Origin: a virus
Direction: 5' to 3' (one strand)
DNA: 30,110 nt
Virus record (IMG/VR): IMGVR_UViG_3300030329_002764
Coordinates: 1 to 30,110 of that record
Shown here: positions 12,517 through 29,366 of the stretch, one piece after another
How the letters are laid out: each line of letters begins with the position of its first letter
Position numbering within the stretch: position 1 is the first letter of the stretch
Notes under the pieces: model-generated
The model's database searches: none
Seen by the model: the letters and a program-made list of their open reading frames with translations, nothing else
What the model was told of the DNA's origin: nothing
Made by a program: the position numbers and the translations under genes

Positions 12517-12521
12517 AGTGT

Positions 12522-12550
12522 TTGGAAAATTAAGATAAATGTATTATATT
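12522..12550 (+). promoter_or_regulatory. Candidate sigma70-like promoter upstream of the ejection/RNA polymerase operon
   Basis: In the only notable gap of the plus-strand module, TTGGAA (12522-12527) and TATATT (12545-12550) are separated by exactly 17 bases. They match 4/6 and 5/6 positions of the sigma70 -35 and -10 boxes. An AAGGAG SD follows before the ATG at 12577. AT-rich DNA yields such matches by chance, so this rests on the spacing and the location. Confidence 0.4.
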
Positions 12551-12576
12551 AAATTGATAAAAAGCAAGGAGTTTTT

Positions 12577-13125
12577 ATGAGTTGGCCCGCTATGGCTTTA
12601 GGTACAGGAATGAACCTTCTTACAGGTTATCTTGCAAACCAACAAATGCGTAATACCCAGAAAAAAGTTAAAGAACATTTAAGTGACTGGAGAACTGGTA
12701 TAGATAAGTATCAAACTTTATCTGACGATTTAATGGATGTAGGTAGCGGTGCTAATCAAGCGCTACGTACAGATATAAGACAAAATATGATGGATTATGC
12801 TAGTGCAGGCACAAGAATGAACCAAAGAGCTTTATCCAGTGGTGGTATGGGAGGATTTAGTGGTATTCAACAACAAAATCAAAGTCAATTATTTGATAAA
12901 GTAATGGCTAATGCAGAAGATAGTTTTCAATCTGCTTTTATGAAAAATAAACAATTAGGAACTTCTTTATTAGATAGTTACGTTAAAAACTTACAAGCTT
13001 ATGGTGAGAATCTAGCTCAAGGACAAATACAATCAGACTCAATGAAAGCAGGAATGATAAGTCAATTAGGAATGGGAATGGGTAATGCAGCATTTCAATT
13101 TGGAATGGAGAACCAGTTTGGATAG
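12577..13125 (+). CDS. Ejection-type internal virion protein (182 aa)
   Basis: The start has an AAGGAG SD. The N terminus is a short Gly/Ala/Met-rich hydrophobic stretch (PAMALGTGMNLLTGYLA), then helices rich in Gln, Asn, Ala and Met, a Gly/Ser/Gln linker around residues 88-107, and another long helix ending with Met/Gly-rich sequence. This small Gln/Ala-rich helical layout with a membrane-seeking N terminus is typical of podoviral internal (ejection) proteins such as the T7 gp14 group. It is the first gene after the promoter-like gap and is followed by two further ejection candidates and the giant polymerase candidate, all in one direction. No specific homologue is claimed. Confidence 0.6.
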   Translation: MSWPAMALGTGMNLLTGYLANQQMRNTQKKVKEHLSDWRTGIDKYQTLSDDLMDVGSGANQALRTDIRQNMMDYASAGTRMNQRALSSGGMGGFSGIQQQNQSQLFDKVMANAEDSFQSAFMKNKQLGTSLLDSYVKNLQAYGENLAQGQIQSDSMKAGMISQLGMGMGNAAFQFGMENQFG

Positions 13126-13137
13126 AAAGGATAAATT

Positions 13138-14214
13138 ATGGCTTTAGATTGGTCACCAATGACAATACCTAGTTATTTAATGATGAAGAATCTGGAACAA
13201 ACAGGTTCTGATATAGGTAGATTTATGTTAGGTCCTGGAGCAGAAGCTGCTCTTGGAAGGCCTGAAAAAACAGCAAAAACAACAGATGAATTTCTTAGAA
13301 ACTTCGGACAATCTTATTGGATAGATGAATTAGGTGGTAAAAAAGGGGATTATAAAACATACGAAGAATTTGCTGAAACTAATCCTTTATTAAAAGCTGT
13401 ACATGAAGGAGAAAAATTTAAACATGATGATATAACAGGCCAATTAAGTCATTGGGTACCTGATGTTGATGACCCTACAAAAGGTACATGGCAAGTTTGG
13501 GATACTTCTGGTGGTATAGTTGGTGATACTGGTGAAGAAAGTATAGAATTATATTCTCCTTTTGGAGCGCAAGACAAAAAAAGCCAATTTGAAACTTATC
13601 TTGATAATGTTTGGGGTGATACTTTTGCTTTAGGTGGTGATTTAACTTATAAAACACCTAGAAGTATGTTAGGCGCACTATTAGACCCTAATTATAAATA
13701 TTCAGGAGAGAAACAAGATTTTGGGATAAAGGATATAAATCTTGGAGGGGTAAAGGATGTATTTAGTAATTTAGAAAAACCTGATTTAAAAACATTACCT
13801 AATTTAACAAAAGCAGGTGGATATATAGGAGATTTATTAAAACAAGGATTTAGTGGATTAAAAGATACAAAAGTTTCTAATGTAATAGATAAACTAAAAA
13901 CTAGAAAAACTCCTATATTAGATTTATTATCTAATCTTCCTTATAAACCTGAAGGGTCAATGCAAACTTATGATATGAGAGGAACAGGTAGAACAAGTGG
14001 ACTTCCATCAACATATAATGTGAAAGATGTTTATGGCAATCAAAAAGGAGCTGAAACTCCTAATGTTTACGAGGTTCAATCAGGTGACTATTTAGGCAAT
14101 ATAGCTAGTCAACATGGTTTAACTCTGCAAGAAATTATAGATTTAAATCCACATATTACTTGGGAAAATATGAATAAAATACATCCTGGACAACAAATTA
14201 ATATAGGTAAATAA
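13138..14214 (+). CDS. Internal virion / ejection protein with C-terminal LysM domain (358 aa)
   Basis: The first 300 residues are of mixed composition with no recognised fold. The last ~49 residues (about 310-357) form a LysM module: 'YEVQSGDYLGNIASQHGLT' followed by LQEIIDLNP and a closing 'IHPGQQINIG'. LysM binds N-acetylglucosamine in peptidoglycan or chitin, so this protein probably touches the cell wall during DNA entry or lysis. No muramidase or transglycosylase motif is visible in the rest, so it need not cut the wall itself. It lies 12 nt after one ejection candidate and 1 nt before the next. The LysM call is strong; the ejection role comes from context. An antisense 60-aa frame inside it is a shadow. 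Confidence 0.78.
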   Translation: MALDWSPMTIPSYLMMKNLEQTGSDIGRFMLGPGAEAALGRPEKTAKTTDEFLRNFGQSYWIDELGGKKGDYKTYEEFAETNPLLKAVHEGEKFKHDDITGQLSHWVPDVDDPTKGTWQVWDTSGGIVGDTGEESIELYSPFGAQDKKSQFETYLDNVWGDTFALGGDLTYKTPRSMLGALLDPNYKYSGEKQDFGIKDINLGGVKDVFSNLEKPDLKTLPNLTKAGGYIGDLLKQGFSGLKDTKVSNVIDKLKTRKTPILDLLSNLPYKPEGSMQTYDMRGTGRTSGLPSTYNVKDVYGNQKGAETPNVYEVQSGDYLGNIASQHGLTLQEIIDLNPHITWENMNKIHPGQQINIGK

Positions 14215-14215
14215 T

Positions 14216-15421
14216 ATGGCAATAGATAGAGACGCTCAAATACAGAACTTAAAAAATCAAAAATCACAGATGTATAATCAAGATTATTTTAATTCTAAAA
14301 TGCCAGTATATACAGCTAATTCAGGAGGTTTTACATTAGATGCTGATGGTAGTGTTAAATATAATGAAAGAACAAATGCAGTTCCTTCATTAAATCAAAT
14401 GTGGGGTGAATATGCAAGAGGAGCTAAATCTAGAGGTATTAAACCAGATTATATAACGTTTAAGAATTTTTATGATACATTAAATCAAAATCAACTTGCT
14501 CAAACTAAAAAACAATTTATAGATGCTTTTGAAAATGATAATTTTAGTAATGAACAAATTACAGAAATTTTAAGAGAAAACCCTCATTTATCTAAAAAGT
14601 TTTATGCTTCTACATCTGGTGGTGGTGAAGATGATTTATTATTAAGAGATGCTCTTGCTCCTAAAAAACAAACAACTCCTTCATCGTTTTGGGAAGACCA
14701 TAAATTAAAATTATTAGCAGGTCTTGGAGGAACTGCAATAGGTGCTCAATATTTATTTGCTCCTAGAACTCCTGCCGACCATGCTACAAAAGTAAAAGAG
14801 TCTGAAAAACTTAAAAATCAAGCTAAAAAAACTCATGAAAAATATGTAGAAAAAAATAGACCTAAATATACAAGCGGGAAAAATAAAGGTAAAGTGATTC
14901 CAAAAACAATTTTAAAAGATGGAAAAAGAATATCTAATCCAGATTATGTTAAATTTAAAGAATCAAAAGGTTATAAAACAAGTGTAAGTAAAAAAGAAGC
15001 TGCAATAAAGAAAGCTAAAGAACTTATTCCTGAGAAAAAATTAAGTAAATTTTCCGAATTAAGGAAAAATAGAAAACTTAATCAAACTGGACTTGGAGTA
15101 ACTCCAGTTACTTTATCAGTTTTATCTACTGAAGTAGCAGAAGAAATTTTAAAGGGAGCAGGATTTTCTGAAGAAGATGCTGCAATTGGTAGCAGAATTA
15201 TAAGTGGTAGTACTGGCGCAGGATTAGGTATATCATCAATAAAAGATTTAGCAAAACCAGGTATGATGAATAAAATAAAAGGACTTATAAAAGCTGCTGG
15301 TAGTTCTCATCAAATATATCATGCAACTACAGGTGAATCTCTTTGGGGCCTTGATACAACTGCAGGAGAAGGTGGAATAGAACAATCAGACATTAATATG
15401 CCTGACGAATTTAAAAAATAG
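14216..15421 (+). CDS. Ejection-type protein with two hydrophobic segments (401 aa)
   Basis: The protein has a helical N-terminal part, a Gly-rich hydrophobic segment around residues 165-180 (LKLLAGLGGTAIGAQYLFA), a very basic middle (about 190-290, many Lys), and a second Gly/Ala-rich hydrophobic stretch around 290-345. The basic middle could bind DNA and the hydrophobic patches could enter the host membrane, which suits a podoviral ejection protein. The end is acidic. The gene begins one base after the LysM gene and stops 9 nt before the giant gene. No catalytic motif is recognised. Role inferred from composition and neighbours. Confidence 0.55.
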   Translation: MAIDRDAQIQNLKNQKSQMYNQDYFNSKMPVYTANSGGFTLDADGSVKYNERTNAVPSLNQMWGEYARGAKSRGIKPDYITFKNFYDTLNQNQLAQTKKQFIDAFENDNFSNEQITEILRENPHLSKKFYASTSGGGEDDLLLRDALAPKKQTTPSSFWEDHKLKLLAGLGGTAIGAQYLFAPRTPADHATKVKESEKLKNQAKKTHEKYVEKNRPKYTSGKNKGKVIPKTILKDGKRISNPDYVKFKESKGYKTSVSKKEAAIKKAKELIPEKKLSKFSELRKNRKLNQTGLGVTPVTLSVLSTEVAEEILKGAGFSEEDAAIGSRIISGSTGAGLGISSIKDLAKPGMMNKIKGLIKAAGSSHQIYHATTGESLWGLDTTAGEGGIEQSDINMPDEFKK

Positions 15422-15430
15422 AGGTAATTC

Positions 15431-18400
15431 ATGTATAATCCTTATGAATCGCTAGGATATCAAGAGCCTTCAATACCTCAACTACAAACTCAATATCAAC
15501 CTATTGGAGATAACGCTACTCCAGAAGAAGGTTTTGCTCCAGAATATAGCGAAAAAAAACTAAGAGATTTAATAAAGCTATATAAAAGCAACCCTAAAGT
15601 AATCAATTCAAAAATGTTAGACAAAATGCAGAAGCATGCTGTATACTATAATGTCCCATTTTATACAGGTGACTTTAGTATATTAGGAGCTTTATCAGAG
15701 CTAGGAAAAGGGTTATTTTCGGGATTTACTACTCTAGAGATAGGTGACCCTCCTGATAACGAATATGAGGCTATAGTAAGGAATTTAGGGCATTTAATAG
15801 GATTTGCTCCTGGATTGATGGCTAAACCATTAAAGCTTCTAGGATTTGCTAATCAAGCACGTTCTATTGCAGGTATACGTTCAGTTCCAATGAAAGTTGC
15901 TGACTTTGTAACTAAAAAAACTAAGAATACTATTTCAAATGTTAGCGCTGGTGCTATAGCTAGAAGAGGAGATGCTGCACAAACCGCTGGTAAATTCTTA
16001 ACTGGTGGTGCTGTTAAACATGTAGCAGAAGGAGCGTTTCATTTAGGAGTTGCTAGTGCAGCAAGTAGTTGGCAACAAGGCATTGATGGAATGATTCATG
16101 GTGGATTAGGTGGAGCTAAATTTGGAGGAGCTTTTGCTGCTCTTGGTAATATAGTTCCTGGAAAGGGTGGAGGTTCTTATATATTAAGAGCATTAGCTGG
16201 TTCACTATTTCAAGGATTACCTGCTACACAAAGAGGAGCTACTACTCCTGAGCAAGTATACGAATATATGCTTGGTGCTTATTTTGGTGGAGGTGCAGTA
16301 GGATGGGTTGAAAAAGCCACTAATGAATTCTTTGTTAAAAAAACAAAACAAGCCTATGGTACAGAACCTGGAAAAGCTGACCATAAACTTTTAGCTACTA
16401 ATGACCCAAGACTTGTAAAAGGTTGGAGCGAATTAGACCCTGCTGTAAAAAAATCAATAGAAAAAGAATTTAAAGACCCTAAAAGTAATCATTATGACCC
16501 AGATGCTATTGGCGAAAATTTAGAAGAAACTCCTTACAGAACAGTTCAACAAGAGTTTGTTATAAAAACATTAGGCCTTCATTTAGATAAAGTAGGTAAT
16601 CCAACAAAAGAAAGTTGGCAATCACTTAATGAATTAGCTTTACCTGCAAAGAAAAGAACTGGACTTGCTAATAAAACAGAAAAAGATTTAATTGAAGTAA
16701 GAGAAAATAAAGAGAAAATTACAGAAGATTTAAGAACTTTAAGAAAAGCTTTAAAAATAGCTAAAAAAGATGAAAAGATTATTATCCAAGAAGATATAAG
16801 GTTAAAAACTTTAGAACTTGAAAGAGAAAATACTTTTGAAAAAGAATTATTAAAGCTAAAACCTTATGAGTTTTTTGAAGAAAAAGCAGGAAAGAGAACA
16901 ATCCAAGTTGAGCCAAGAGCTGATGGAAATGATATTGGAATGTTCAACAGGAGAGATTTAACTAGAAAGTCTGAACAATTTGTAGAAGAGAATTTATCAG
17001 AAATATGGGATAATGCTAAATTTTCACCTCAAAGAAAAGCAGAAGAAAAAATAAGATTAACTGCTGTTATAGATGATGTAATAACAAAGCCAGAGTATTT
17101 TACTAAAGGTCAAAAAGTAAATATGACTAAACTGAAAAAAGATATTGTAAATACTATTAAGAGAGAAGAAGGTATAAAAGTAAAAATAGATAAAGAAACA
17201 GAAGATGGATTACGACAATGGCTTACTCGTAATAATTTTGGTAAAATAGTTAAACAATTAAATGTTTCTTTAGATTATAAAGGTAATATTATTGAAAAGG
17301 ATATAGAAATAAGAGGTGAAGATGGATTTACTTTGGCAGGTAATCGTGCGCAGAATTTAGAACCTGTAAAATTAATTCAAACTATATTTGAAACAATGGT
17401 TCCGCCTCCTAAAAAAGGACAAGCTGCTCCTGAATCGCATATATTATTTGACAATATAACAATACGGGCTAAAGATGGGTCTTTTAAAGATATAAAATTA
17501 TCTCATTTAAGAAAAAATTTAAAAGTTGATAGTAAAAGTGAGAAAATAGCTCTTGAAGGTAGAGAAAAATATGATTCTATTATAAGAAAAGTTCATGATA
17601 AAATGGCAAAAGATGGGTTTTATCCTTTCGGAGGTAAAGGTGATAGTGATATAATAATGTATGTTAAATTACATCCTCATTTAAAAAATAAAAAAATAAC
17701 CCAATATGTAAAGAATTCTATAACCAAGGCAGTTAATAAGAGTAAAAATGCAAAACATCATATAAAAGGCTTTTTAACAGCTATGAAAAGAAATAAATTT
17801 TTTACTGAAGAACAAGCTAAAGAGCAATATATTAGTAATCTATTGTGGGATATATCTTTAAACGGATTTAAACCAAAAAGCCAAGCTGGGTATTCAAGAG
17901 TAATAAATAAGCTATTTTTTGGAGAAGGGTTTATTAAAAATGCAACTGCTTGGAATAAAAGAAACCAAATATGGTTTACTCCTGCATGGGCTGCAGACAA
18001 AGCATTAATTAAAAAGTTTTTTGATGAAGCATCATTGGGTCTTCCTACTTTAAAAGTAAATTATGTAACAACACCTATTATAGGTGAGGGAGGAAAAGTC
18101 GTTGCTGCTCAAACAGATTATAAAAATAATCAATTATTGGTTAATAAAAAAGAAGCCGCTAAAACATTTAAAGATAAAGTTTGGACAAAACCTAAAATAA
18201 AAGGAGTAAAACCTTTACCCTTAGATTCATTTAGAACAGTAAAAGAATGGATAGATTTTCAAATAGCTCATGAACGAGCTCGTTTTACGCGTCAAAATAA
18301 AAGAATAAAAAATATAGCAGAAAGAGAAAACCATGCTAATAAGCTTGCTATGCAATCATTTGAGCAAGCTAAAAAATTTAACAAGAGTATTAAAAATGGT

Positions 18401-21400
18401 AAATTAAGATACATTATTGCTAGAGATTTAGACCCTGCGTTATTTAAAAAAGTTAAAGGTGTACTCAAAAGAATAAAAAAATTAGATAAAAACAGTTTAA
18501 ATACTGAACATGGTGAACATGTTGATGGACAAATATTAGTTGAAGATACCGTATTAGATGCAATAATAAGAGATAGTGGAATGCCTGATTCAGGACAAAG
18601 TAAATCATTTATTGTAAGTCCTGATGCTGTAAAAGGAGCATTACTTGGTAAATATATGATGCATTCAGCTGGTCCTGAAGCCTCAAGAATGATGAGAGAA
18701 AATGGATTGCATATGATTATGCAAGAATCAGCGGCTAAACAAACAGGGGAAAGAAAGCTTACTGATTATAAAGTAAACCCTTTAGTTTTACCTCAAATTC
18801 AAATGACATCAAACCAAATTTTAAAAGCGTATAATAAATATATTAGAGAACCTAATTGGTCTGTTGATGCTAAAAAAGATATTATCAGAATAGACCATTT
18901 TAAAAAATATGATAAAGCAACAGGGAAATTATTAGAAGATAAATTTGACCCTGTACAAGCAAAAACACAATTTGCTGATTATATGAGAAAAGATAAAGGC
19001 ATAAATGTAATATACGATAAGGCTACTGATACTTTTAAAGATGCAACTACAAGACAAATTCCAAAACATTTAGAAATAGATGATATAAAAAGGATATATG
19101 AACTTCCTATCGAAGATATCAAATACGCTTACAATGTAAAACAAGACACTAAAATGGCTGGGTATATTATTAAAGATGGCAAAAGGATTCCTCATCATCA
19201 TCATATTCCAAAACAATTGTTAATGGCAATGGCTCAAAATACTTTTTCAAAATTCCCTAAATCTTTAGTAGATGAATTTTATACTGAAACTGTATTAAAA
19301 AGATTTAATGGTAATGAAGAATATAATGAAATGGTAGGAGAATATTTAAAAAATCCAAAAGATAAATTAAGATATAATATATTAGAAAAAAATATTGATA
19401 AACTAGGTATTCAGCAATTATTAGATATTTTAAATGGACCTCCAACTCCTTTAACGGATGCTGCTTATTTTAAATTAATGAAAATAAATAAAGAAGCTAT
19501 AGCAGAAAGAGTAGCAGAAGGAGAAATTACTCCAGAAGAAAGCGATGCGATTCTGAACAATATAAATGAATTTAATTCTGTTGTTGATAGAATCACTAAT
19601 GCTGCAATAGAAGTAAAAAATAGAGAAAGATTAGCTGGAAGAGAAGGAAATGTAAACTCTATGTTATTACATCAATACATGCGAAAATATAGATTTAATG
19701 TTATAAAAAATTATGTATTCGATTCAATATCTAAACCTAAAATAGGTAATTCTGGAATGGCTAGAATGAGAGGTTTTGATAAGTTTTTTCAAGCTGACCC
19801 TGAATTTCAAGAATTAAATCATAGAGATGATATTTTCTTTTTAGATAATAGTTTTCATAATATGCCTTTAAGAACTTTTATAAAAGGATATGAAAATACT
19901 ACTTTAGGAAAATTTTGGCACGATTATAAAAATAACACAGAAAGCAAAATATACAAAAGCAAAGATGCAGAAGAGGTATTAAAAGCAACAACAGTTCGTG
20001 TTCCTATGGACTCTGTAAGTGGAGCACAAGTGCTTAAATTCGCAGGATTTACTGGAAGAAAAGGTCATGGTATACTAATGCATGCAAGAGCTATGAGAGC
20101 TGAAGGTGGTGCTGACCTTGATGGTGATGAAGCGTTTATCTTTTTTGGTGGTAGAAAAGGTGGAAAAGGTGGAGGATTTAAAAAAGAATGGGCTGAAGCT
20201 TTTGAAGCTAATAAAAGAGAGTATGAAAAAGCTGATGGCACTACTCCTGATAGGAAGCAAGGTAAAGTTCCTAAAATAGATAAAACTTATGAAGAATATT
20301 TAACAAAAGAAGATTCTATAAAAGAAACTGGTATTGACCCTGAATGGAGAGATGGGCCGTTTTGGAAATATGATTCTGGTTGGAGAGAAGAATTATCTGG
20401 AAGAGCTGTTGATGGAAGAAATGATTTAAGTGTTGTGTCTAATATGACTCAAACAATGAAAGCTTCTCATAATGCTATGCTTTATTTAAAAGGTCAAAAA
20501 CAGACTATAGAAGTTAAAATTCCTGACCCTACTAATCCTCGTGAACGTATAAAAATAAAAGTTACTATAAAACCTAAAACAGATGAAAAAGAATTAACAA
20601 ATGCAAGACAATTAGCATCTTCTATGATAGCTTTTACTTCAGACCCTTTAGATGTAGCTGGACTAAAAGGTACTAGTGATTATTTTAGAAAACTTCATAA
20701 AGCTTTTTTTGATGTTAGTGTACCTAAAAAGCATGAGAAAAAATTTAATGCATTAAGTGATGATGCATATAGAAGTTTATTTTTAAATAATAAGAGTATT
20801 TTAGGACAAATGACTGAATTTAATTCTGCTTTATTTGGAAGAAATTATTCAGATAACAGGTCTTGGACTGCTGGAGATATAGCTCATAAAACAAGATTTA
20901 TAGCAGACGAAAAAACTTTTGGTGCAGAAGAAGATATTTCTCATACTATGTTACCTAAATTAGCACGTCTTGCTCATAGAGTAGATTTAAGAGATAAACT
21001 TTTTCATAAAATTAGTAGAATCAATTTAAATAAAATGTATAGAGACCATGAAAATATTATTAAAAATTTTCCTGAAATGTCAGAGATAGTAGACAATCTT
21101 GAAGTTCCACAAAGTCGATTAATTACTGATGTTCTTAGAAGTAAAGTATATACAAAAATGATGTATGATGCAGTAGCAAATAATTTTGATTGGTTTAAAA
21201 AAGTAATAAGGAACAGTCAATATGCACAAGGTAAAAAATATGAAATAAATCTTGATTATTACTCAGATAAAGTTCCAAGAGATGTAAGAGTAGCAAGAAG
21301 AAAACGTATATTAGATAAACTATTAAATTTTGCTGAAAATATTATTACACAAGATGTTACAGATATGGTATCTTATAGAATGGTTTGGAAATACTATGAT

Positions 21401-24400
21401 GGTAAAGAGGTTAATAAAACATTGTTTAGAAAGATGTTAAAAGAAGCTAATTCTATTAGAAGAGAATCTTATTTAGCTAGAGAAAATGTTGGAGCTCCTA
21501 AAGAAGCTTCTGAAGAAGTTCAAAGAAGTTATTTTGGTGGACCTAAAGTTCCTACTGGTAAAAATAGAGCACGTTTATTAGACCAATCAAAAGTAGATAA
21601 AAGAATATCTGATTTTAAAAAGACTTTACCTAATAATAGAGCTATAAAATTATTTGATATGCTTTTACTTGGAAGTTATAGACACGGAACTAAACAAACA
21701 TCTCTAACTAAAATAGGTTTAGCTTCTAAAGCTGTGGACAAAGATAGTGTTGTTGAATTTTTAGGAGAATTTAATACAATTATGAATAAAGCAATAAAAC
21801 CTAAAGAGACAAAAACTGCTGAAGAATTATTTGAAAGAATGGAAAAAGGTGATATGATGGAAATGGAAAAAGATTCACCTGTTACTTTAGCAAGAACAAT
21901 ACTTAAAGATACTACAACAGGTTATGAAGGTCTTCATGGTAAACCAGATATGAAAAAATTACCAAAAGAAGTAAGGCAAGAATTAACAGAGCTTGTTGAA
22001 AATTTAGATTTCTATGGGAATAAAGTAAAAAAAGATTTGAATTTAATTGTTAGAGGCATTTTACAAAAAGATTTAAATACATTAAATTTTGCTGATTTTA
22101 AAACTTTAAATAATTATTTCAAAGAATTAAGAGGCGGTACTTTTTGGCAAAGATTATTTGGAGATAAAGGTCCTCATCCTGAATTAAAAAGGAGATATTG
22201 GTTTCAATTTCCAGCTACTGTTGGTAGAGAAACTATGAAGTATGATATAGAGTTATTAAAGAAAAGAGGTTTATTTACTACAAAGACTGGAGAACATGTA
22301 GGAGAAGGTGATATAGCAATACCTACTAACTTTATGGAAAAATTACAACATGGTATTAGTATAGCTATGGATGCTGCTCAATCTAAAGGAGATGAAGAAG
22401 TTGGTAGATTAAGAAGGGAATTAGATTTTATTGGTGACTTATCAGATGGAGAATCTTTAAGGCAAGTTGCTGTTAGAAAAATTGAAAAGGCTAATGCAAG
22501 TAAAACATTTGATGAAGTTGAATCATTTTTAGGTAAAGAGTGGGCAAAAACTTATCTTGATTTATATAAAAAAACTGTAAATGAAGTTGATTATAATTCT
22601 TTAAGAAATAAAAAATATATGATAACTAATAAAGATGGTAAAAGAGTTGAAATGTCAGGTGAGCAAATTGTAAATGATATTACAAAAGTTTATAAAAATT
22701 TCTTTGATGGAATGCATAAAATTATAGTTGGTAATAAAGAATTTACAGAAAGATATATAAAGACAAATAAAAAAGGTGAAAAAATGTATTGGGATATTGC
22801 TGATTATAAAAAATTTCCTGATAGAACAAAGCCTATGGAACCTGTTTATGATTATAAAAAAGTTATGAAAGATATATATGAAGCATATAATAGAGGTGAA
22901 GATTTAACTCTTCATTTTGGTATTGATGGATTAAGACAAATAGCTCGTTCTATGATGATTAGATTACATGACTATAAGAAACAACAATATAAATCTAGAT
23001 TTGAATTAAGAAAAGAATTTGAATTGCCAAGACCTACAAATAAAATAGAAGAAGGTTATTGGCCTCATATGTTTTTTGATAAAACTATAGCATGGAATGC
23101 TATGAAAAAAGCGATTGATAAAATTGAAAAATCTAATTTACCTAAAGAAGATAAAGAAGCTGAGATAGAGAAAATACTTTATAGAAGTAAAAGTTTAACA
23201 GGTGATTGGATAATTGGAACTGAAAATTGGGAAAGTTATGATAATGCTTTAAATAATATAAAGGCTCATAAAAAAACAGATAAAGTTAATTGGTTTAATC
23301 ATAGTCAAATGACAGGTTCTATGCATAAAAGAACAAGCCATATCCCTGGTTGGTCTATTGATGCTACTGTTGCTGAAACTTATGGAAGAAATGTTTATAA
23401 AGTTTATTATAAACAAATGGCTCAATTATTTTCTAGAAATATACTACAAGAATTTGATAATATGGCACTTAGAAAGAATTGGGATAAAGTAGATTATGAT
23501 AAAGGTCGTAGTTTAATGGACAGATGGTCTGATTATTATAAATTATATATTCAAGATGCTATGGGACATCCAAGTGTTATTCCTGACCATATGATAAATG
23601 ACCCTGGAATGCGTTTAAAAGGAACTCCTTATGCTTGGTGGGCTGATAATAAAGTAAAAGATAGAGTAAATTCTATTGCTAAAAATCTTGGTATTAAATC
23701 AAAAATAGAAGGTTTAGAAAGATTTGATTTAACAGATATTATGAGATGGTCTAATCTTGAGGCTAAATTTGAATTAATGTCTTTACTTGCACATCCTAAA
23801 TCAATGATAAATAATTTATTTGGTGGTACTATGCATACAATCCAATCAACTGGATTTCCTGCTCTTCGTAAAGCTCGTGATTATAACTTTTTAAGAACAA
23901 TTAATCCTGAATGGACTAGTAATCAAGCTGTATTAGATTTTGTTATAAAACAAGGTGTTTTTCCAGAAATGTTAATGCATGAATGGGGATTACAAAAAGA
24001 ATTACAAACTGCTAAAGCAAAAGCTTTCTTAAAAGATGTTGGTAAAAGATTAAATTCTAAAGGTGAAATAGATAAAAAAACTTTTAGAGAAATAGCAAGT
24101 GAACATAAAGTTACTGCTCCAATTATGAAAGCTGCTTCTAAATTTATGTCTGTACCTGAAATGGCTTTAAGACGTGATGCTTTTATGTCTCATTATATTA
24201 AAGCTTGGGAACGTTTTGGTGGGGCTATTACTCAATATGACCATCCGTTTTTAATTGAAATGGCTAAGAAAGGTGTTAAAGCTACACAGTTCTTATATAG
24301 TGCTCCTTTTCGTCCTGCATTTTCCAGAACAGCTCTTGGTAAAATTATGACACGTTTTCATTTATGGTCATGGAATTCTTTTAGATTTAGAAATGATGTT

Positions 24401-24925
24401 ATAAGAGAAGCTAGAATTAGAGGATATAGAGCGGGTACTCCTGAATATGAGAAGTTTAAAAGAACAGCAGAAATTGATTTGCTTGTTTATGGATTAGCTA
24501 GTATATATACAATGTCTCTATTTGAAAATGTTTTACCAGCTCCTTTAAATCATATTAAAGAAACTAGTGAATGGTTATTTGGTGATGAAAAAGAAAGAAA
24601 TAGAGCTTTCTTTGGTGCTTGGCCTACTGCTATAGCTCCTTTGCAAATAGTTACTCCTCCTATTGCTAGATTTCCATTAAGTTTATTAAAAACTTTAACT
24701 GATGACAATTATGATAAATTTCTTGATTATCATATTTATACTATGTTTCCATTTGGGAGAATAGCTAGAGATATAGCTCCATTTGCTCCAGGTAATATTT
24801 TAGACAATCCTTATAGGGCTATTGAAAAGTTTACGGGAATACCTTATGGTGATTTTCAAAGAAAAAGAAGAGAGTTAAAAGAAGAAGGTTCTTATCATCC
24901 TCTTTTTCCTTCTATAGCAGATTAA
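15431..24925 (+). CDS. Giant single-chain two-barrel RNA polymerase candidate, probably virion-packaged (3164 aa)
   Basis: Starts after a GAGGT SD and encodes about 360 kDa. Residues ~85-310 are Gly/Ala-rich and hydrophobic, as in phage polyvalent or ejected proteins; ~417-475 is a coiled coil. Residues 1032-1034 (DGQ), Lys1074 (in LGKYMMH) and Lys1103 (in QESAAKQTG) match the beta-type double-psi barrel with its two catalytic lysines. Arg1523-Val-Pro, followed by GADLDGDE (Asp1562, 1564, 1566), matches the DxDGD metal-binding loop of the beta-prime barrel. Single polypeptides with both barrels are known as DNA-dependent RNA polymerases: phi14:2 gp66 (packaged in the virion), YonO, and related QDE-1. 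The C-terminal third (~2250-3164) is helical with a hydrophobic segment near 3015-3035 and is unassigned. Its place as last gene of the ejection operon suggests injection into the host. Polymerase identity rests on motifs read by eye; the packaging is inference. Confidence 0.72.
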   Translation: MYNPYESLGYQEPSIPQLQTQYQPIGDNATPEEGFAPEYSEKKLRDLIKLYKSNPKVINSKMLDKMQKHAVYYNVPFYTGDFSILGALSELGKGLFSGFTTLEIGDPPDNEYEAIVRNLGHLIGFAPGLMAKPLKLLGFANQARSIAGIRSVPMKVADFVTKKTKNTISNVSAGAIARRGDAAQTAGKFLTGGAVKHVAEGAFHLGVASAASSWQQGIDGMIHGGLGGAKFGGAFAALGNIVPGKGGGSYILRALAGSLFQGLPATQRGATTPEQVYEYMLGAYFGGGAVGWVEKATNEFFVKKTKQAYGTEPGKADHKLLATNDPRLVKGWSELDPAVKKSIEKEFKDPKSNHYDPDAIGENLEETPYRTVQQEFVIKTLGLHLDKVGNPTKESWQSLNELALPAKKRTGLANKTEKDLIEVRENKEKITEDLRTLRKALKIAKKDEKIIIQEDIRLKTLELERENTFEKELLKLKPYEFFEEKAGKRTIQVEPRADGNDIGMFNRRDLTRKSEQFVEENLSEIWDNAKFSPQRKAEEKIRLTAVIDDVITKPEYFTKGQKVNMTKLKKDIVNTIKREEGIKVKIDKETEDGLRQWLTRNNFGKIVKQLNVSLDYKGNIIEKDIEIRGEDGFTLAGNRAQNLEPVKLIQTIFETMVPPPKKGQAAPESHILFDNITIRAKDGSFKDIKLSHLRKNLKVDSKSEKIALEGREKYDSIIRKVHDKMAKDGFYPFGGKGDSDIIMYVKLHPHLKNKKITQYVKNSITKAVNKSKNAKHHIKGFLTAMKRNKFFTEEQAKEQYISNLLWDISLNGFKPKSQAGYSRVINKLFFGEGFIKNATAWNKRNQIWFTPAWAADKALIKKFFDEASLGLPTLKVNYVTTPIIGEGGKVVAAQTDYKNNQLLVNKKEAAKTFKDKVWTKPKIKGVKPLPLDSFRTVKEWIDFQIAHERARFTRQNKRIKNIAERENHANKLAMQSFEQAKKFNKSIKNGKLRYIIARDLDPALFKKVKGVLKRIKKLDKNSLNTEHGEHVDGQILVEDTVLDAIIRDSGMPDSGQSKSFIVSPDAVKGALLGKYMMHSAGPEASRMMRENGLHMIMQESAAKQTGERKLTDYKVNPLVLPQIQMTSNQILKAYNKYIREPNWSVDAKKDIIRIDHFKKYDKATGKLLEDKFDPVQAKTQFADYMRKDKGINVIYDKATDTFKDATTRQIPKHLEIDDIKRIYELPIEDIKYAYNVKQDTKMAGYIIKDGKRIPHHHHIPKQLLMAMAQNTFSKFPKSLVDEFYTETVLKRFNGNEEYNEMVGEYLKNPKDKLRYNILEKNIDKLGIQQLLDILNGPPTPLTDAAYFKLMKINKEAIAERVAEGEITPEESDAILNNINEFNSVVDRITNAAIEVKNRERLAGREGNVNSMLLHQYMRKYRFNVIKNYVFDSISKPKIGNSGMARMRGFDKFFQADPEFQELNHRDDIFFLDNSFHNMPLRTFIKGYENTTLGKFWHDYKNNTESKIYKSKDAEEVLKATTVRVPMDSVSGAQVLKFAGFTGRKGHGILMHARAMRAEGGADLDGDEAFIFFGGRKGGKGGGFKKEWAEAFEANKREYEKADGTTPDRKQGKVPKIDKTYEEYLTKEDSIKETGIDPEWRDGPFWKYDSGWREELSGRAVDGRNDLSVVSNMTQTMKASHNAMLYLKGQKQTIEVKIPDPTNPRERIKIKVTIKPKTDEKELTNARQLASSMIAFTSDPLDVAGLKGTSDYFRKLHKAFFDVSVPKKHEKKFNALSDDAYRSLFLNNKSILGQMTEFNSALFGRNYSDNRSWTAGDIAHKTRFIADEKTFGAEEDISHTMLPKLARLAHRVDLRDKLFHKISRINLNKMYRDHENIIKNFPEMSEIVDNLEVPQSRLITDVLRSKVYTKMMYDAVANNFDWFKKVIRNSQYAQGKKYEINLDYYSDKVPRDVRVARRKRILDKLLNFAENIITQDVTDMVSYRMVWKYYDGKEVNKTLFRKMLKEANSIRRESYLARENVGAPKEASEEVQRSYFGGPKVPTGKNRARLLDQSKVDKRISDFKKTLPNNRAIKLFDMLLLGSYRHGTKQTSLTKIGLASKAVDKDSVVEFLGEFNTIMNKAIKPKETKTAEELFERMEKGDMMEMEKDSPVTLARTILKDTTTGYEGLHGKPDMKKLPKEVRQELTELVENLDFYGNKVKKDLNLIVRGILQKDLNTLNFADFKTLNNYFKELRGGTFWQRLFGDKGPHPELKRRYWFQFPATVGRETMKYDIELLKKRGLFTTKTGEHVGEGDIAIPTNFMEKLQHGISIAMDAAQSKGDEEVGRLRRELDFIGDLSDGESLRQVAVRKIEKANASKTFDEVESFLGKEWAKTYLDLYKKTVNEVDYNSLRNKKYMITNKDGKRVEMSGEQIVNDITKVYKNFFDGMHKIIVGNKEFTERYIKTNKKGEKMYWDIADYKKFPDRTKPMEPVYDYKKVMKDIYEAYNRGEDLTLHFGIDGLRQIARSMMIRLHDYKKQQYKSRFELRKEFELPRPTNKIEEGYWPHMFFDKTIAWNAMKKAIDKIEKSNLPKEDKEAEIEKILYRSKSLTGDWIIGTENWESYDNALNNIKAHKKTDKVNWFNHSQMTGSMHKRTSHIPGWSIDATVAETYGRNVYKVYYKQMAQLFSRNILQEFDNMALRKNWDKVDYDKGRSLMDRWSDYYKLYIQDAMGHPSVIPDHMINDPGMRLKGTPYAWWADNKVKDRVNSIAKNLGIKSKIEGLERFDLTDIMRWSNLEAKFELMSLLAHPKSMINNLFGGTMHTIQSTGFPALRKARDYNFLRTINPEWTSNQAVLDFVIKQGVFPEMLMHEWGLQKELQTAKAKAFLKDVGKRLNSKGEIDKKTFREIASEHKVTAPIMKAASKFMSVPEMALRRDAFMSHYIKAWERFGGAITQYDHPFLIEMAKKGVKATQFLYSAPFRPAFSRTALGKIMTRFHLWSWNSFRFRNDVIREARIRGYRAGTPEYEKFKRTAEIDLLVYGLASIYTMSLFENVLPAPLNHIKETSEWLFGDEKERNRAFFGAWPTAIAPLQIVTPPIARFPLSLLKTLTDDNYDKFLDYHIYTMFPFGRIARDIAPFAPGNILDNPYRAIEKFTGIPYGDFQRKRRELKEEGSYHPLFPSIAD
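18512..18748 (+). other. Candidate beta-type double-psi beta-barrel of the giant protein
   Basis: Residues ~1028-1106 read HVDGQI, a strand-rich stretch ending KSFIV, then LLGKYMMHSAG, ENGLHMIM and QESAAKQTG. In two-barrel RNA polymerases the beta-like barrel begins with a DG motif and carries two invariant lysines that contact the nucleotide phosphates; Lys1074 and Lys1103 are the candidates, 29 residues apart. The 'SA.K' ending recalls the equivalent block in large phage polymerases. Confidence 0.6.
19985..20150 (+). other. Candidate beta-prime double-psi barrel with DxDGD metal-binding loop
   Basis: Residues ~1519-1573 contain RVP (1523-1525), a hydrophobic strand (VLKFAGFTG), a GHGILMHA strand and then GADLDGDEAFIFF. 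The three aspartates 1562, 1564 and 1566 occupy the positions that hold the catalytic magnesium in cellular RNA polymerase (NADFDGD) and in phage YonO/gp66-type enzymes. The Arg-x-Pro about 40 residues upstream is also part of that conserved block. Confidence 0.7.
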
Positions 24926-25367: not shown

Positions 25368-25551
25368 CTTGAATCTCCTTATTTATACTCTCTTTTAAAA
25401 AGCCTTCGACTTCTTTTACATAGTCTTCGGCTTTTTTTCGGAGTTGTTTTTCTCCTCTTAATTGTTTTTCAAGAGAGCTAACTTGTTTTGCCAGCTCTCT
25501 TACTCTCTCACAGCATTTCGTCAATGCTTTTTCCATTATCTGTATTTCCAA
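25351..25551 (-). CDS. Coiled-coil protein (66 aa) with probable TTG start
   Basis: The frame can be extended to an ATG at 25602, but that has no SD. A perfect AAGGAGG (complement of 25561-25567) sits 9 nt before a TTG at 25549-25551, which I take as the start; an ATG five codons later would be 24 nt away. The product is a charged heptad-like helix from the CCERVRELAKQ region onward (Leu, Lys, Glu and Arg rich). It overlaps the upstream nuclease gene by 44 bases and the downstream coiled-coil gene by 17. No known domain. The start choice rests on the SD. Confidence 0.6.
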   Translation of the reverse strand: MEIQIMEKALTKCCERVRELAKQVSSLEKQLRGEKQLRKKAEDYVKEVEGFLKESINKEIQDEPKG

Positions 25552-26272
25552 GGCTAAATACCTCCTTAAGTTTAGCTTTATCTTTTGGTTTAGGTTTTCC
25601 ATATGGAAAGTTTAAAAAGCACCATAATTCATATACTTTATGATGAATTTTATACCGTTTATCAAATTTTCTTAATTGATAATTAGGTTCTTTTATCCAT
25701 TTACCTTTTAAATAAAGCCCGTATATGTCTTTTATTCGATGTTCGAAAGGAAATATTGTATTCCATAAGTCCATATACATAAGTTGTTGTATTTCGTGTG
25801 ATTTGCGGTAATCTCCAGTCTTTATATCTATAATAGATAAACGTCCGTTTATGTTTGCTATTATATCTGGAGTTCCAGCCCATGGTACGTCCTTGTGATA
25901 TAGGAATATCTCTTGGGTTTGTATCTTGGGTGAATGTTCTTTATAGAATTTCTCAAATGACATTAATGACTTCTGAATAAATTCGTCATTAACAATTATT
26001 TCTTCGCCATTTAATAATAGTTCTATGTTTTCGTGTACTGCTGTGCCGCGTTCTGCTGCCTCGTCTCTTAGGTTAATAGCGTTTAACCCATTCTTCATTA
26101 ACCATTCATCAAAGAATTTACCTTTTGAGCAGGTTTCTCCTATAACGGTTGTTACAGATGGTTTCCAGTTTTTGCTTGCTCCCTGACTATACCATCTGCC
26201 AGCTCCTTCGTGTCTTTTAATCTGTGTCTTTTTTAGGTATTCTTCTATTATCTCTATTAGTAGTTTGTTCAT
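25508..26272 (-). CDS. PD-(D/E)XK nuclease, RecB/Cas4-like exonuclease (254 aa)
   Basis: The motifs of the RecB/Cas4 nuclease family are present in order: RGTAVH with His80, Glu121 in a 'QTQEIFLYHK' strand, Asp136 in AGTPDII, Asp149-x-Lys151 in IIDIKTGD (the D/E-x-K core), and the Gln162/Gln163...Tyr166 motif (IQQLMYMDLW). These bind the metal and cut DNA, usually as a 5'-3' or 3'-5' exonuclease in phage recombination or host DNA breakdown. No cysteine set for an iron-sulphur cluster is seen, unlike many Cas4 proteins. An AGGAGG SD lies 4 nt before the ATG. It sits in the replication module downstream of primase-helicase, HNH and HTH genes. A 60-aa frame inside it is a shadow. The family is firm; the polarity is unknown. 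Confidence 0.85.
   Translation of the reverse strand: MNKLLIEIIEEYLKKTQIKRHEGAGRWYSQGASKNWKPSVTTVIGETCSKGKFFDEWLMKNGLNAINLRDEAAERGTAVHENIELLLNGEEIIVNDEFIQKSLMSFEKFYKEHSPKIQTQEIFLYHKDVPWAGTPDIIANINGRLSIIDIKTGDYRKSHEIQQLMYMDLWNTIFPFEHRIKDIYGLYLKGKWIKEPNYQLRKFDKRYKIHHKVYELWCFLNFPYGKPKPKDKAKLKEVFSLGNTDNGKSIDEML
25561..25567 (-). promoter_or_regulatory. Shine-Dalgarno fixing the TTG start at 25551
   Basis: On the minus strand this reads AAGGAGG, nine bases from the TTG codon. It lies inside the 3' end of the nuclease gene, so the downstream gene is translated from a site embedded in its neighbour. Confidence 0.55.
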
Positions 26273-26342
26273 TGAGCCTCCTGACCCATTGTTTGCTAAC
26301 TCCTTGTGTTTTGATTGAACTCAATCTAGGTGTAATATCGCT

Positions 26343-26435
26343 TCAAGTTTCGTTGTAACCACATGTCATACATGTATAGCCACAATCGCTACCTGAAACG
26401 ACATTACCACATTGTAAACACTTAACTATTTCCAT
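26343..26435 (-). CDS. Micro zinc-ribbon protein (30 aa)
   Basis: A 30-residue product with Cys6-x2-Cys9 (CLQC) and Cys22-x2-Cys25 (CMTC), a complete four-cysteine zinc ribbon, plus Cys18. The ATG overlaps the end of the upstream HTH gene by ten bases and a weak SD (AGGT) precedes it. Such tiny ribbons occur in phages as nucleic-acid or host-protein binders. The four well-spaced cysteines make chance coding unlikely despite the length. After the TGA the same frame stays open for about 40 more codons. Confidence 0.55.
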   Translation of the reverse strand: MEIVKCLQCGNVVSGSDCGYTCMTCGYNET

Positions 26436-26557
26436 TTGTACCTGTAAATTGTGCGAATTGACACTTTAAAAATGTCTGCTAATTTACGAGGTTTATATCC
26501 AAGAAGCAAAAGAAAATTTATCTTCCACTCTTTAAAGTTGTTTATCTTTTTTCTCAT
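26426..26557 (-). CDS. Micro helix-turn-helix protein (43 aa)
   Basis: Starts in an ATGA overlap with the upstream stop and encodes 43 residues. From about residue 20 the sequence GYKPRKLADIFKVSIRTIYR has the shape of a DNA-binding helix-turn-helix: helix (RKLADIFKV), turn (Ser-Ile), recognition helix (RTIYRYKWK). This recalls sigma-like or resolvase-like HTH segments. The first half is a basic amphipathic helix. It probably regulates phage genes or binds DNA as a dimer, but no target is visible. A 77-aa frame on the opposite strand covers the same bases and is rejected. Confidence 0.6.
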   Translation of the reverse strand: MRKKINNFKEWKINFLLLLGYKPRKLADIFKVSIRTIYRYKWK

Positions 26558-26697
26558 CTTCTTACTTTATTATGATGGTTATGAGTTAACATTTGATATA
26601 GCCACCAGCATCGACCATTGCCAGTTGCTTTTAAAATTCTTTCTTTTCTCTTATCATTTAACTTTTTCATATTTGCTTTTCTAACTTCTTCTTCCAT
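26554..26697 (-). CDS. Micro basic protein (47 aa)
   Basis: An AGGAG SD lies five bases before the ATG, in an 8-nt gap after the HNH gene. The 47-residue product is basic and helical in its first half (many Lys, Arg, Glu), has an aromatic pair (Trp31, Trp32) in GRCWWLYQML, then a His-rich end (HNHHNK). No family is recognised. It ends in an ATGA overlap with the HTH gene, so both are likely translated in series. The SD and overlap support it being a real gene; function unknown. Confidence 0.5.
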   Translation of the reverse strand: MEEEVRKANMKKLNDKRKERILKATGNGRCWWLYQMLTHNHHNKVRR

Positions 26698-26705
26698 TTT
26701 ATCTC

Positions 26706-27182
26706 CTAATTAAATACATCTGATTTTGCTAGTTTTCTTAAGATGTAATCTTTTACTCTTTCGTCTTGTTTAGATACCCATTTGATAAATGTTTTATATT
26801 CTTTATCTGTAAGGGGACCTTTTTTGGTATTACAAGATGCACATATCATTTGAAGGTTGCTCTTAAATGAACCTCCTCCACTAGATATTGGATGTTTATG
26901 GTCACAAACCATATTAGTTACATCTAACTTTTTTTTACAGTATTTGCAAGGTTTATTATATGCTTTATATAACATTTCGCGTATTTCAGTTAAAGATATG
27001 TTAAATATTACTTCATACTCTTTACTTCTTTTCTTTAAAGATGACTTTAAAGTTGAAGATTTTTTCATAAGTCTATGAAACATTCTTTTAGCATGTGTCC
27101 CATGAGTGGGATGAAGCTTTTTCATAAACTTCTTTTCCCACTCTTTAGGACTACGCGACTTCCGATTGGAATTCTGGTTCAT
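26706..27182 (-). CDS. HNH endonuclease (158 aa)
   Basis: The HNH/beta-beta-alpha-metal core is clear: Cys79-x2-Cys82 (CKYC), Asp94-His95-x-His97 (DHKHPIS), GGG, Asn109-Leu110, then Cys114-x2-Cys117-Asn118 (CASCN). The four cysteines form the structural zinc site and the His/Asn residues the catalytic metal site that nicks or cuts DNA. The first ~55 residues are very basic and could contact DNA. It may be a free-standing homing endonuclease or a phage replication/packaging nuclease; no intron or intein is seen beside it. It begins one base after the winged-helix gene ends and has only a weak, distant SD, suggesting coupled translation. Two plus-strand frames within it are shadows. Confidence 0.85.
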   Translation of the reverse strand: MNQNSNRKSRSPKEWEKKFMKKLHPTHGTHAKRMFHRLMKKSSTLKSSLKKRSKEYEVIFNISLTEIREMLYKAYNKPCKYCKKKLDVTNMVCDHKHPISSGGGSFKSNLQMICASCNTKKGPLTDKEYKTFIKWVSKQDERVKDYILRKLAKSDVFN

Positions 27183-27183
27183 G

Positions 27184-27432
27184 CTAGCTTGCTTTTACCT
27201 TTTGTCCAGTCGGTGTTTTTGTCATTTGGTATCTCCCGAAACCTTTATATATACCTCTTGAATTTTGGGTTGTGACAATTTCAAAACCCTTTTTTCTTAA
27301 GTTAAATATAATTGCTGACAATCTCCAAGCTCCGAAAAGTTTAGCTGCTTGTGCTTGATTTAAAGTTTTACCTTTAAGCAAATGCATCATTACTTTGCGG
27401 CTTTTTGAAAGCTTCTTTGAAGTTTTTCGCAT
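27184..27432 (-). CDS. Winged-helix / HTH DNA-binding protein (82 aa)
   Basis: The segment LKGKTLNQAQAAKLFGAWRL continuing into SAIIFNLRKKGFEIVTT is the signature of a small phage helix-turn-helix domain (helix QAQAAKLFG, turn, recognition helix RLSAIIFNLRK, then a wing strand). The family is usually described as HTH with 'l....a...fg..rLsarI..LR..G'. The N terminus is basic. It probably binds DNA as a regulator. The start has an AAAGGA-like SD eight bases away. It overlaps the end of the upstream 73-aa gene by 59 bases. The fold is well supported; target unknown. Confidence 0.78.
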   Translation of the reverse strand: MRKTSKKLSKSRKVMMHLLKGKTLNQAQAAKLFGAWRLSAIIFNLRKKGFEIVTTQNSRGIYKGFGRYQMTKTPTGQKVKAS

Positions 27433-27595
27433 TTTCGTTTTCCTTTCCTAGAGAAATAAAAGTAGATAGTTTCCATAATTTAATATATATATGAAAAGTA
27501 TTATTTATTGTACCTTTATTTACTCCAAATTCTAATCGAAGTATCCAAAATAAGCATACTCCAATTATATTTTCGTATTTTATTAACTTAATCAC
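27374..27595 (-). CDS. Small GTG-started hypothetical protein (73 aa)
   Basis: A GTG at 27595 lies five bases after an AAGGAG SD and overlaps the primase-helicase stop by eight bases, so translation would be coupled. The product begins IKLIKYENIIGVCLFWILR, a partly hydrophobic helix, then is mixed and ends in a basic helix and a polar tail. No domain is recognised. Against it: it overlaps the winged-helix gene by 59 bases, which is long for this cluster. The perfect SD makes me keep it. Confidence 0.48.
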   Translation of the reverse strand: MIKLIKYENIIGVCLFWILRLEFGVNKGTINNTFHIYIKLWKLSTFISLGKENENAKNFKEAFKKPQSNDAFA

Positions 27596-29366
27596 ATCTT
27601 CTCCTTAATCTAAAGCATGGTTGCCATTCTAAATCAACTTTAAATAATTCTCCATCAGTATTTTTTAATACTTCTAAAGATTTTTCAGATGAGTTAGCTT
27701 GTCCGTTTAAACCAATAACTTTTCTTGATGCGTTTTCTATTGCTCCAGACCCTTTACCTGCATATAAATCTAATGCCTCATTTCTAGAATATTCTCTAGA
27801 TACTTGAGATACTTGAATTATAATCAAATCATTATTAACAGCCATACTTGAAAGTGAATGTGATATATATTTAATTTGTTCATACTCTCCTCTAACATGA
27901 GGTGGAGTTTCAACTAAATCAATATAATCTACAATTACTAAAGCTGGTCTTAATTCTTTAACTTTTGCTTGTATTTGTTCTAAGTTTGGAGGGATTGTTT
28001 GAATGACCATATGATTTAATTTATCTTTATTATCACTATAAGCTTGTTTAGGATTATCGTTTATTTCTTCTTTTGTTAATCCTGATACGATTTGCATATT
28101 ACGTCTATGCATATACCAAGCTGATAATTCTAAAGATAAATATAATGTAGGAATTTGCCAATCAGTATTTATGTCATCATTAGCAAAATCAACACCTAAT
28201 GCTATACATTGTGCTAGTGTTGTTTTACTTGAGCCAGTGGGCCCGAAAACTGTTACTAATTCGCCTGGATATATTTCTGTATCCGAGTTGTCTGCTCCTA
28301 ACATTTTAGCAAGAGGTATTGAACGTCCATCAAAATCTGCTGACATTCGTTTTTCTAACTCTTGTTGTAAATCATCTGAATTAAGGACATCAATAAGGTA
28401 GTCTTTTCTTTTGAAATGTATGCATCTAGTCTTACAATGCTTTAACATTATCTCATCTTGACAACCAAATCTATAACCTCTATTGTAAACATACTCAACT
28501 TTTTCGACCACACTATTTTCATTTAAAGAATTATTATTCCAATGTAAAATAGCAGTTTTTGCATATTCTGAAGGTATACCATGTCTGTAGAAATGACTTG
28601 CTATTCTTATTAGCGTTTGATTTCTATTGCCCTCTTGGGGCCCATTTGTCAACATTTCTTGTACACACGGTATAACGTCCCTTGGTTCAACAACTTTACG
28701 TATTTGGGTCATTCTAGGGGCTCTATTAAGAATTTTGTTTTCTAGCTCACCATTTCCTACTAGTTCACTATAAGCAAATTCTATTCTTGGTGATTCAGCT
28801 AATTCCTTTATCCATTTAACATCTTTATTTAAGATTTCAGCTATTGTTAAAGGTATTTTATGAAGATTAGTTTTCTTATTTATTGTATGTTGAACACGGT
28901 ATATACCTGTTCTCATAAATATTGAACTATCTATTATATCTCCAAAAATAGATTTAAGAGTCCCTTTTACCAAGTAATGTATATTATCGCTACTTGGAAA
29001 ATTAAATACACTATTAGGTAAAGCTAAATGATAACCACTTCCACTGAAATATGGCTGTATAGAATAATTTATATCTACTCCCATATCATCAATGTCTGTT
29101 ATTATTTTTCTAGCTTTTTTTAATGTATATTCATCACTATTGTCACCTTTATCTATATCGATTAATATCCAATCTATTGCTCTTTGACCAAAGTAATTCT
29201 TTAGTCCACCGTTTGATTCGGCATAATCTATAGCGGATTTATCATATAAATAAACTGACCTAAATAGTGGAGTATCATGATTTATATATTTAACTAAATC
29301 TGATTTTGCAATAAGTCGCCCTCTGTTACGAGGGCTACCTACTGCTATTTCAATATAGTCAAACAC
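27588..29366 (-). CDS. Bifunctional primase-helicase: AEP-type primase fused to DnaB-like helicase (592 aa)
   Basis: The N-terminal half carries archaeo-eukaryotic primase motifs: Asp70-x-Asp72 (ILIDIDKGD), the S-G-S-G-Y-H113 block (FSGSGYHLALP), Asp146, and 'RTGIYRVQHTINKKTNLHK', the usual lead to the third motif. A linker has Cys302, Cys311 and Cys315, a possible metal site. The C-terminal half is RecA-fold DnaB: Walker A GPTGSSKT (375-382), the catalytic Glu413 in LSLELS, Walker B LVIVD (Asp480), IIIQVSQVS and a GSGAIENASRKV arginine-finger region. It would unwind the fork and prime synthesis. The start is GTG, overlapping the upstream TAG by one base. Phage fusions of this type stand in for separate primase and helicase genes. 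Confidence 0.88.
   Translation of the reverse strand: MFDYIEIAVGSPRNRGRLIAKSDLVKYINHDTPLFRSVYLYDKSAIDYAESNGGLKNYFGQRAIDWILIDIDKGDNSDEYTLKKARKIITDIDDMGVDINYSIQPYFSGSGYHLALPNSVFNFPSSDNIHYLVKGTLKSIFGDIIDSSIFMRTGIYRVQHTINKKTNLHKIPLTIAEILNKDVKWIKELAESPRIEFAYSELVGNGELENKILNRAPRMTQIRKVVEPRDVIPCVQEMLTNGPQEGNRNQTLIRIASHFYRHGIPSEYAKTAILHWNNNSLNENSVVEKVEYVYNRGYRFGCQDEIMLKHCKTRCIHFKRKDYLIDVLNSDDLQQELEKRMSADFDGRSIPLAKMLGADNSDTEIYPGELVTVFGPTGSSKTTLAQCIALGVDFANDDINTDWQIPTLYLSLELSAWYMHRRNMQIVSGLTKEEINDNPKQAYSDNKDKLNHMVIQTIPPNLEQIQAKVKELRPALVIVDYIDLVETPPHVRGEYEQIKYISHSLSSMAVNNDLIIIQVSQVSREYSRNEALDLYAGKGSGAIENASRKVIGLNGQANSSEKSLEVLKNTDGELFKVDLEWQPCFRLRRRCD

Follow-up and report, generated by a model that had tools for sequence, protein, structure and literature searches.

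Single-chain RNA polymerases with two barrels are already known as a kind among phages, and few of them have been solved or assayed. The enzyme of phage phi14:2, gp66 (PDB 6vr4), is a chain of 2180 aa from a 100-kb Cellulophaga phage. Its gene lies in a block of structural-protein genes, with other very large structural proteins among the neighbours, and in its annotation gp66 is a structural protein, with detection by MS/MS. The proteins associated with the polymerase of crAss001 have been detected in virions and are probably stored in the capsid; extrusion and refolding are thought to follow (PMC10172136). Phage P23-45 encodes two enzymes of this kind, of which gp96 carries a polymerase without a clamp at the N-terminus of the tail tape measure protein and transcribes the pre-early genes, whereas gp64 is a non-virion polymerase encoded among those pre-early genes (PMC10770324). 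In YonO, replacement of the aspartate triad results in an inactive enzyme (PMC5467207). A further giant single chain, N4 gp50 (about 3,500 aa), has been called the largest ejection protein and analogous to T7 gp16 (PMC12633501).

We analyzed a virus fragment of 30,110 bases, referred to here as the window, in which an ORF with an ATG start and 3164 open codons is the final long plus-strand gene ahead of an opposite-strand module. A gap of 9 bases separates its start from the end of the preceding gene (15421). We consider it probable that this giant protein is a DNA-dependent RNA polymerase with two barrels in one chain and a helical C-terminus, probably part of the ejection apparatus, and that the protein is most likely carried in the virion and injected, to transcribe the replication module on the other strand. 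The locus resembles that of gp66 in the single chain, the two barrels and the position of the gene among structural genes; it differs in the length of the chain, the size of the genome (about 52 kb in the window family), the very large structural neighbours of gp66, and the long helical region that the window protein carries at its C-terminus, within the one chain. The features of the locus are collected in Table 1.

Table 1. Features of the giant gene and its surroundings, in window coordinates
Feature	Coordinates	Strand	Basis
Giant protein, 3164 aa: putative two-barrel RNA polymerase, long extensions at both termini	15431..24925	+	ORF, predicted fold
Conserved Gly-rich N-terminal block, residues 205-286	16043..16288	+	18 columns of 201-300 invariant, 47 relatives
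Predicted polymerase region, residues 800-2116	17828..21778	+	Collinear QDE-1 matches
Beta-type barrel block (DPBB-B), residues 1030-1110	18518..18760	+	D1032 G1033, K1058, K1074, K1103 Q1104 invariant
K1103	18737..18739	+	Aligned with phi14:2 gp66 K1065
Beta-prime-type barrel block (DPBB-A), residues 1518-1576	19982..20158	+	R1523-V-P ... G-G-A-D-L-D-G-D-E
D1562-L-D1564-G-D1566, predicted catalytic aspartate triad	20114..20128	+	Sequence, conservation
SDPLDVAGL, residues 1737-1745, conserved after DPBB-A	20639..20665	+	Conservation
Helical region, residues 2300-2717, weak likeness to podophage ejectosome proteins	22328..23581	+	PhiM1 Z 7.0, E1004 Z 5.6
Top-conserved C-terminal motif GVKATQFLYSAPFRPAFSRTALGKIMTRFHLW..., residues 2948-2989	24272..24397	+	Conservation; weak hhalign match, PhiM1 internal core protein 1113-1131
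Hydrophobic helix, residues 3017-3035	24479..24535	+	Hydropathy
Three small genes upstream: 182 aa, 358 aa (LysM at the C-terminus) and 401 aa; candidate ejection proteins	12577..15421	+	
Replication module: exonuclease, HNH/endonuclease VII, primase-helicase, 204-aa protein	25508..29980	-	

Motifs of the giant protein and their conservation

A preliminary description had read GADLDGDE, RVP, DGQ and ESAAK motifs in the 3164-aa ORF, and all of them are present as described, with RVP at 1523, DGQ at 1032, ESAAK at 1099-1103 and K1074 inside VKGALLGK. The lysine block had been placed about 460 residues upstream of the aspartates; K1103 and D1562 are indeed 459 residues apart in the window protein, and 338-459 among relatives. 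Relatives were obtained from IMG/VR, where a close search returned three, a profile of the core 55, and a profile of the C-terminal part 284 stretches. In the window, as in every full-length relative, one ORF encodes both barrels. These relatives are 2919-3525 aa long, crAss-type CDSs reach about 4,900 codons and P23-45 gp96 has 5,002 residues (PMC10770324), so that a length earlier said to exceed most such enzymes is ordinary for the kind.

As the first set of 55 loci had been fetched partly with the pattern "ADLDGDE", the invariance of those letters in that set is partly by construction. Conservation was therefore recounted on loci fetched with C-terminal patterns alone, and this count replaced the first, partly circular one. 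D1562, D1564, D1566, R1523, P1525, K1058, K1074, K1103, D1032 and G1033 were invariant in 56 of 56 aligned sequences, an alignment which includes the window protein and whose other members are 33-58% identical to it. The letters between the aspartates differ among relatives (DLDGD, DKDGD, DLDAD, DLDID, DHDID, DFDGD). Judged from the alignment, fixed aspartates, R-x-P and lysines amid varying neighbour letters are the pattern of catalytic selection. The same observation bears on the idea of a degenerate polymerase fold retained solely as a structural or ejection scaffold, which would suit an overall sequence so divergent from every known polymerase; we regard it as highly improbable, given that the three aspartates, R-x-P and three lysines remain fixed while the letters around them vary.

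The spacing of the motifs is equally constrained. R-x-P lies exactly 39 residues ahead of D-x-D-x-D in all 61 testable relatives (57 by regular expression, 4 as R-T-P), the same distance as from R1322 to D1361 in gp66. Among 455 other ORFs of the fetched contigs (169,144 aa), nine contain DxDGD and none has an RxP at the right distance; since the spacing is exact in every testable relative and absent from these other ORFs, the motif pair is not due to chance. In the six near-complete relatives, no protein besides the giant one contains the pair.

The lysines K1074 and K1103 had been proposed as the catalytic pair. K1103 stood, being aligned by HHalign with gp66 K1065. K1074 as the second lysine was not established: it faces no gp66 lysine, and K1058, which is equally invariant, falls about two positions or less from gp66 K1027. 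From the alignments, K1058 may take the place of K1074 as the second predicted catalytic lysine. Further along the chain, the conserved SDPLDVAGL sits where, by inference, the bridge-helix and trigger-loop elements are expected, and the Gly-rich N-terminal block is possibly related to the envelope or to ejection.

Two variations of the gene were observed among the relatives. A DUF7831 domain is inserted shortly after the aspartate barrel in 3 of 42 members (best E 4.4e-30; L001:12287-15574, L021:9725-13006), and in another locus (L032) the giant gene is broken into two overlapping frames, 6816-8153 and 8102-12796, through either a sequencing error or a genuine break.

Predicted fold of the central region and its relation to known families

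The window protein and the family alignments gave no usable match to Pfam, to PHROGs or to the sequences of the PDB, a tblastn search of 50,697 INPHARED phage records returned nothing relevant, and the family was not found in a check of the open-access literature. Pairwise sequence similarity to gp66 is likewise not detectable. Profile comparison by HHalign of the family core with nine crAss-type polymerases gave a P of 4e-4 with a probability of only 34%, and one alignment pairs SAaK1103 with gp66 K1065 and RVP...DLDGD with RIP...DFDID. The N- and C-terminal parts of the giant protein, compared with the same polymerases, gave P values of 0.79 and 0.045 and no such motif alignment, and the motif blocks taken singly reached the right place (P 0.013 and 0.009), the minimum in 12 control segments being 0.054. 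On crAss-like membership, this HHalign match stands beside the lack of any PHROG or Pfam match, and the best matches of the portal and terminase are to non-crAss phages (24-28% identity), in genomes of about 52 kb versus about 100 kb for the crAss type. As far as sequence can tell, the window family is separate, invisible to Pfam, PHROG, PDB and INPHARED sequence searches, and has much smaller genomes. A search of 20 relatives for the T7-type RNA polymerase family (PF00940) found none, a result that is not evidence of absence, as the control was also not found.

An AlphaFold2 model of residues 800-1960, built from 42 sequences, had a pLDDT of 82.3 and a pTM of 0.77, and its top Foldseek match in the PDB was the phi14:2 virion RNA polymerase 6vr4 (E 3.7e-4), followed by QDE-1. 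With VIA-align, the core model matched QDE-1 with a Z of 14.6 (421 residues), plant RDR2 with 14.2 and 6vr4 with 12.1 (577 residues), followed by P74 gp62 (11.2), P23-45 gp64 (11.1) and gp96 (10.6), the eukaryotic largest subunits (about 8.4-9.6) and E. coli beta-prime (8.3); viral largest subunits were within 8-10. The range matching QDE-1 and 6vr4 covers both barrels. Far from lacking a double-psi barrel, the model matches two-barrel polymerases, and together with the in-register crAss-type profile comparison it supports the earlier proposal of a single-chain two-barrel polymerase of the gp66, YonO and QDE-1 kind. Residues 800-1857 correspond to QDE-1 266-807, and residues 1973-2116 of a second model to QDE-1 823-966 (Z 7.6), in collinear order. 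Because the QDE-1 matches continue collinearly through 2116, we place the polymerase part at about residues 800-2116. In the predicted active site, the beta-type barrel (residues about 1020-1120) would supply the lysines and the beta-prime-type barrel (about 1518-1576) the three metal-binding aspartates D1562, D1564 and D1566.

QDE-1 and RDR2, the matches with the highest Z, differ from the giant protein in being eukaryotic RNA-silencing enzymes without a phage context. Their rank could point to a two-barrel polymerase that serves replication, making primers or copying DNA or RNA instead of producing mRNA (PolD-like or RdRP-like); DLDGD, which we take to resemble the RDR signature, was counted in the same direction. 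One relative (L042) also gave a weak Pfam RdRP match (E 0.0014), which we rejected, as a genome search did not reproduce it and a better terminase match overlaps that stretch. The phage encodes its own primase-helicase and the top Foldseek match is the DNA-dependent phi14:2 enzyme, and we give a replicative polymerase very little weight compared with a transcribing one. Natural variants in the family could be used to test the relationship between the RNA-silencing polymerases and the phage enzymes.

Several unnamed viral proteins in BFVD (A0A516M3R5, A0A516L9L2, A0A516LUR1 and others) match the core fold at 9-11% identity, with E values of about 1e-11 to 1e-4. These model-based matches suggest further undescribed families of two-barrel polymerases.

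The C-terminal region and its likeness to ejection proteins

The model of residues 1965-3164 was poor and mostly helical (pLDDT 63.5). Ranking second and fourth among its PDB matches are podophage ejectosome or core proteins, both over residues 2300-2717: that of PhiM1 (8vb2, T7 gp16 type), with a Z of 7.0 over 229 residues, and E1004, with a Z of 5.6 over 228 residues, values under the safe threshold and too low to exclude a common helical arrangement. Profile comparison of the region with eleven PhiM1-type internal core proteins was not significant (P 0.073). A single short profile match pairs PAFSRTALGKIMTRFHLW with PAWMQFSSVGKVILPYMTF, in collinear order with the structural match to PhiM1. 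Near residue 3017, a hydrophobic helix with a 19-mer mean hydropathy of at least 1.4 was seen in 34 of 47 relatives. A role of the C-terminal region in ejection is likely, the polymerase part being fused to a helical region of approximately 1000 residues that probably belongs to the ejection apparatus.

A likeness to sigma-70 region 2 at approximately residues 2834-2958 (23930-24304) recurred in the searches; with a Z of about 4 over approximately 64 helical residues in a low-confidence stretch, it is probably a coincidence and was set aside.

According to the models, a central polymerase followed by a long helical C-terminal part is an architecture different from that of the known enzymes. 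Like the giant protein, P23-45 gp96 combines a two-barrel polymerase with a virion part in one chain; in the window protein the polymerase occupies the middle of the chain, and no tape measure can be recognised in the part fused to it. N4 gp50 is similar in position and size. We take the N4 polymerase to be of the T7-like kind, and therefore the likeness would be convergent. On a bolder and more tentative reading, a polymerase of the cellular and RNA-silencing fold, with a core as near to QDE-1 and the RDRs as it is to any phage polymerase, might be fused in one chain to an ejectosome protein of the T7 gp16 type. Such an enzyme would lie within the DNA-entry channel of these approximately 52-kb phages, could pull the genome in by transcribing, and would be the two-barrel counterpart of the unrelated polymerase of N4. 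The window family is in any case a separate addition to the known single-chain enzymes, with 284 IMG/VR stretches carrying a relative of the C-terminal half.

Genome context and the proposed time of action

The six near-complete relatives are 50-56 kb long and consist of two opposed modules. One strand carries the terminase, portal, capsid and fibre-side genes together with the giant gene, and the other the genes for HNH, primase-helicase and recombination proteins and, in part of the genomes, for an exonuclease. Primase-helicase and HNH genes were found downstream on the opposite strand in all 33 relatives with enough sequence. In the window, the giant gene closes the structural and ejection-side module, with a LysM gene nearby, in agreement with its earlier placement at the end of an ejection-protein operon. 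The small proteins encoded upstream had also been called membrane-seeking, a description that fared less well, as hydropathy shows no clear membrane segment in the three of them.

By analogy with phi14:2, crAss001, P23-45 gp96 and N4 gp50, packaging, injection and transcription of the opposite-strand module first are a reasonable inference. The giant protein would be made late alongside the structural proteins and stored in the capsid; at infection, it would be extruded through the tail and refold in the cell, where it would transcribe the replication module of the opposite strand at a time when no phage proteins have yet been made. An enzyme that is active and not injected would instead be made during infection and transcribe other phage genes, its C-terminal region having another intracellular role. 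That such non-virion two-barrel phage polymerases exist is known from P23-45 gp64, which the core model resembles (see above), and we consider this explanation unlikely though worth keeping in mind: the giant gene ends the structural module beside a LysM gene, in contrast to gp64, which is encoded among pre-early genes (PMC10770324), and its product has a helical extension that is very large, as in virion polymerases. If delivery with the virion, which we favour, holds true, injection of a polymerase would be found for the two-barrel fold in one more architecture, in parallel to N4, and some uncultured phages presumed to depend on the host for transcription may carry in an enzyme of their own.

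In the divergent early regions of the six genomes, a search for promoter-like words gave repeated 18-mers that barely exceed a shuffle and no shared motif. Among bacterial genome contigs, 593 pattern matches included no relatives, and hence these contigs offered no clue to a prophage or a host.

Some other genes around the giant one were also observed. An extra same-strand gene of 480-613 aa follows it in three of the six near-complete relatives (G002 40228-42066, in L074; G008 1265-2704, in L078; G017 43654-45204, in L086). At positions 3947-11170, the window encodes a 2407-aa protein without a Pfam or PHROGs family match, tail- or fibre-like by composition; its homologues, at the same place in relatives, evolve fast and reach about 3100 aa. 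The structural module also includes a metallo-phosphoesterase (773-1564; phrog_221, E 3.8e-21), which is 63-82% identical in relatives.
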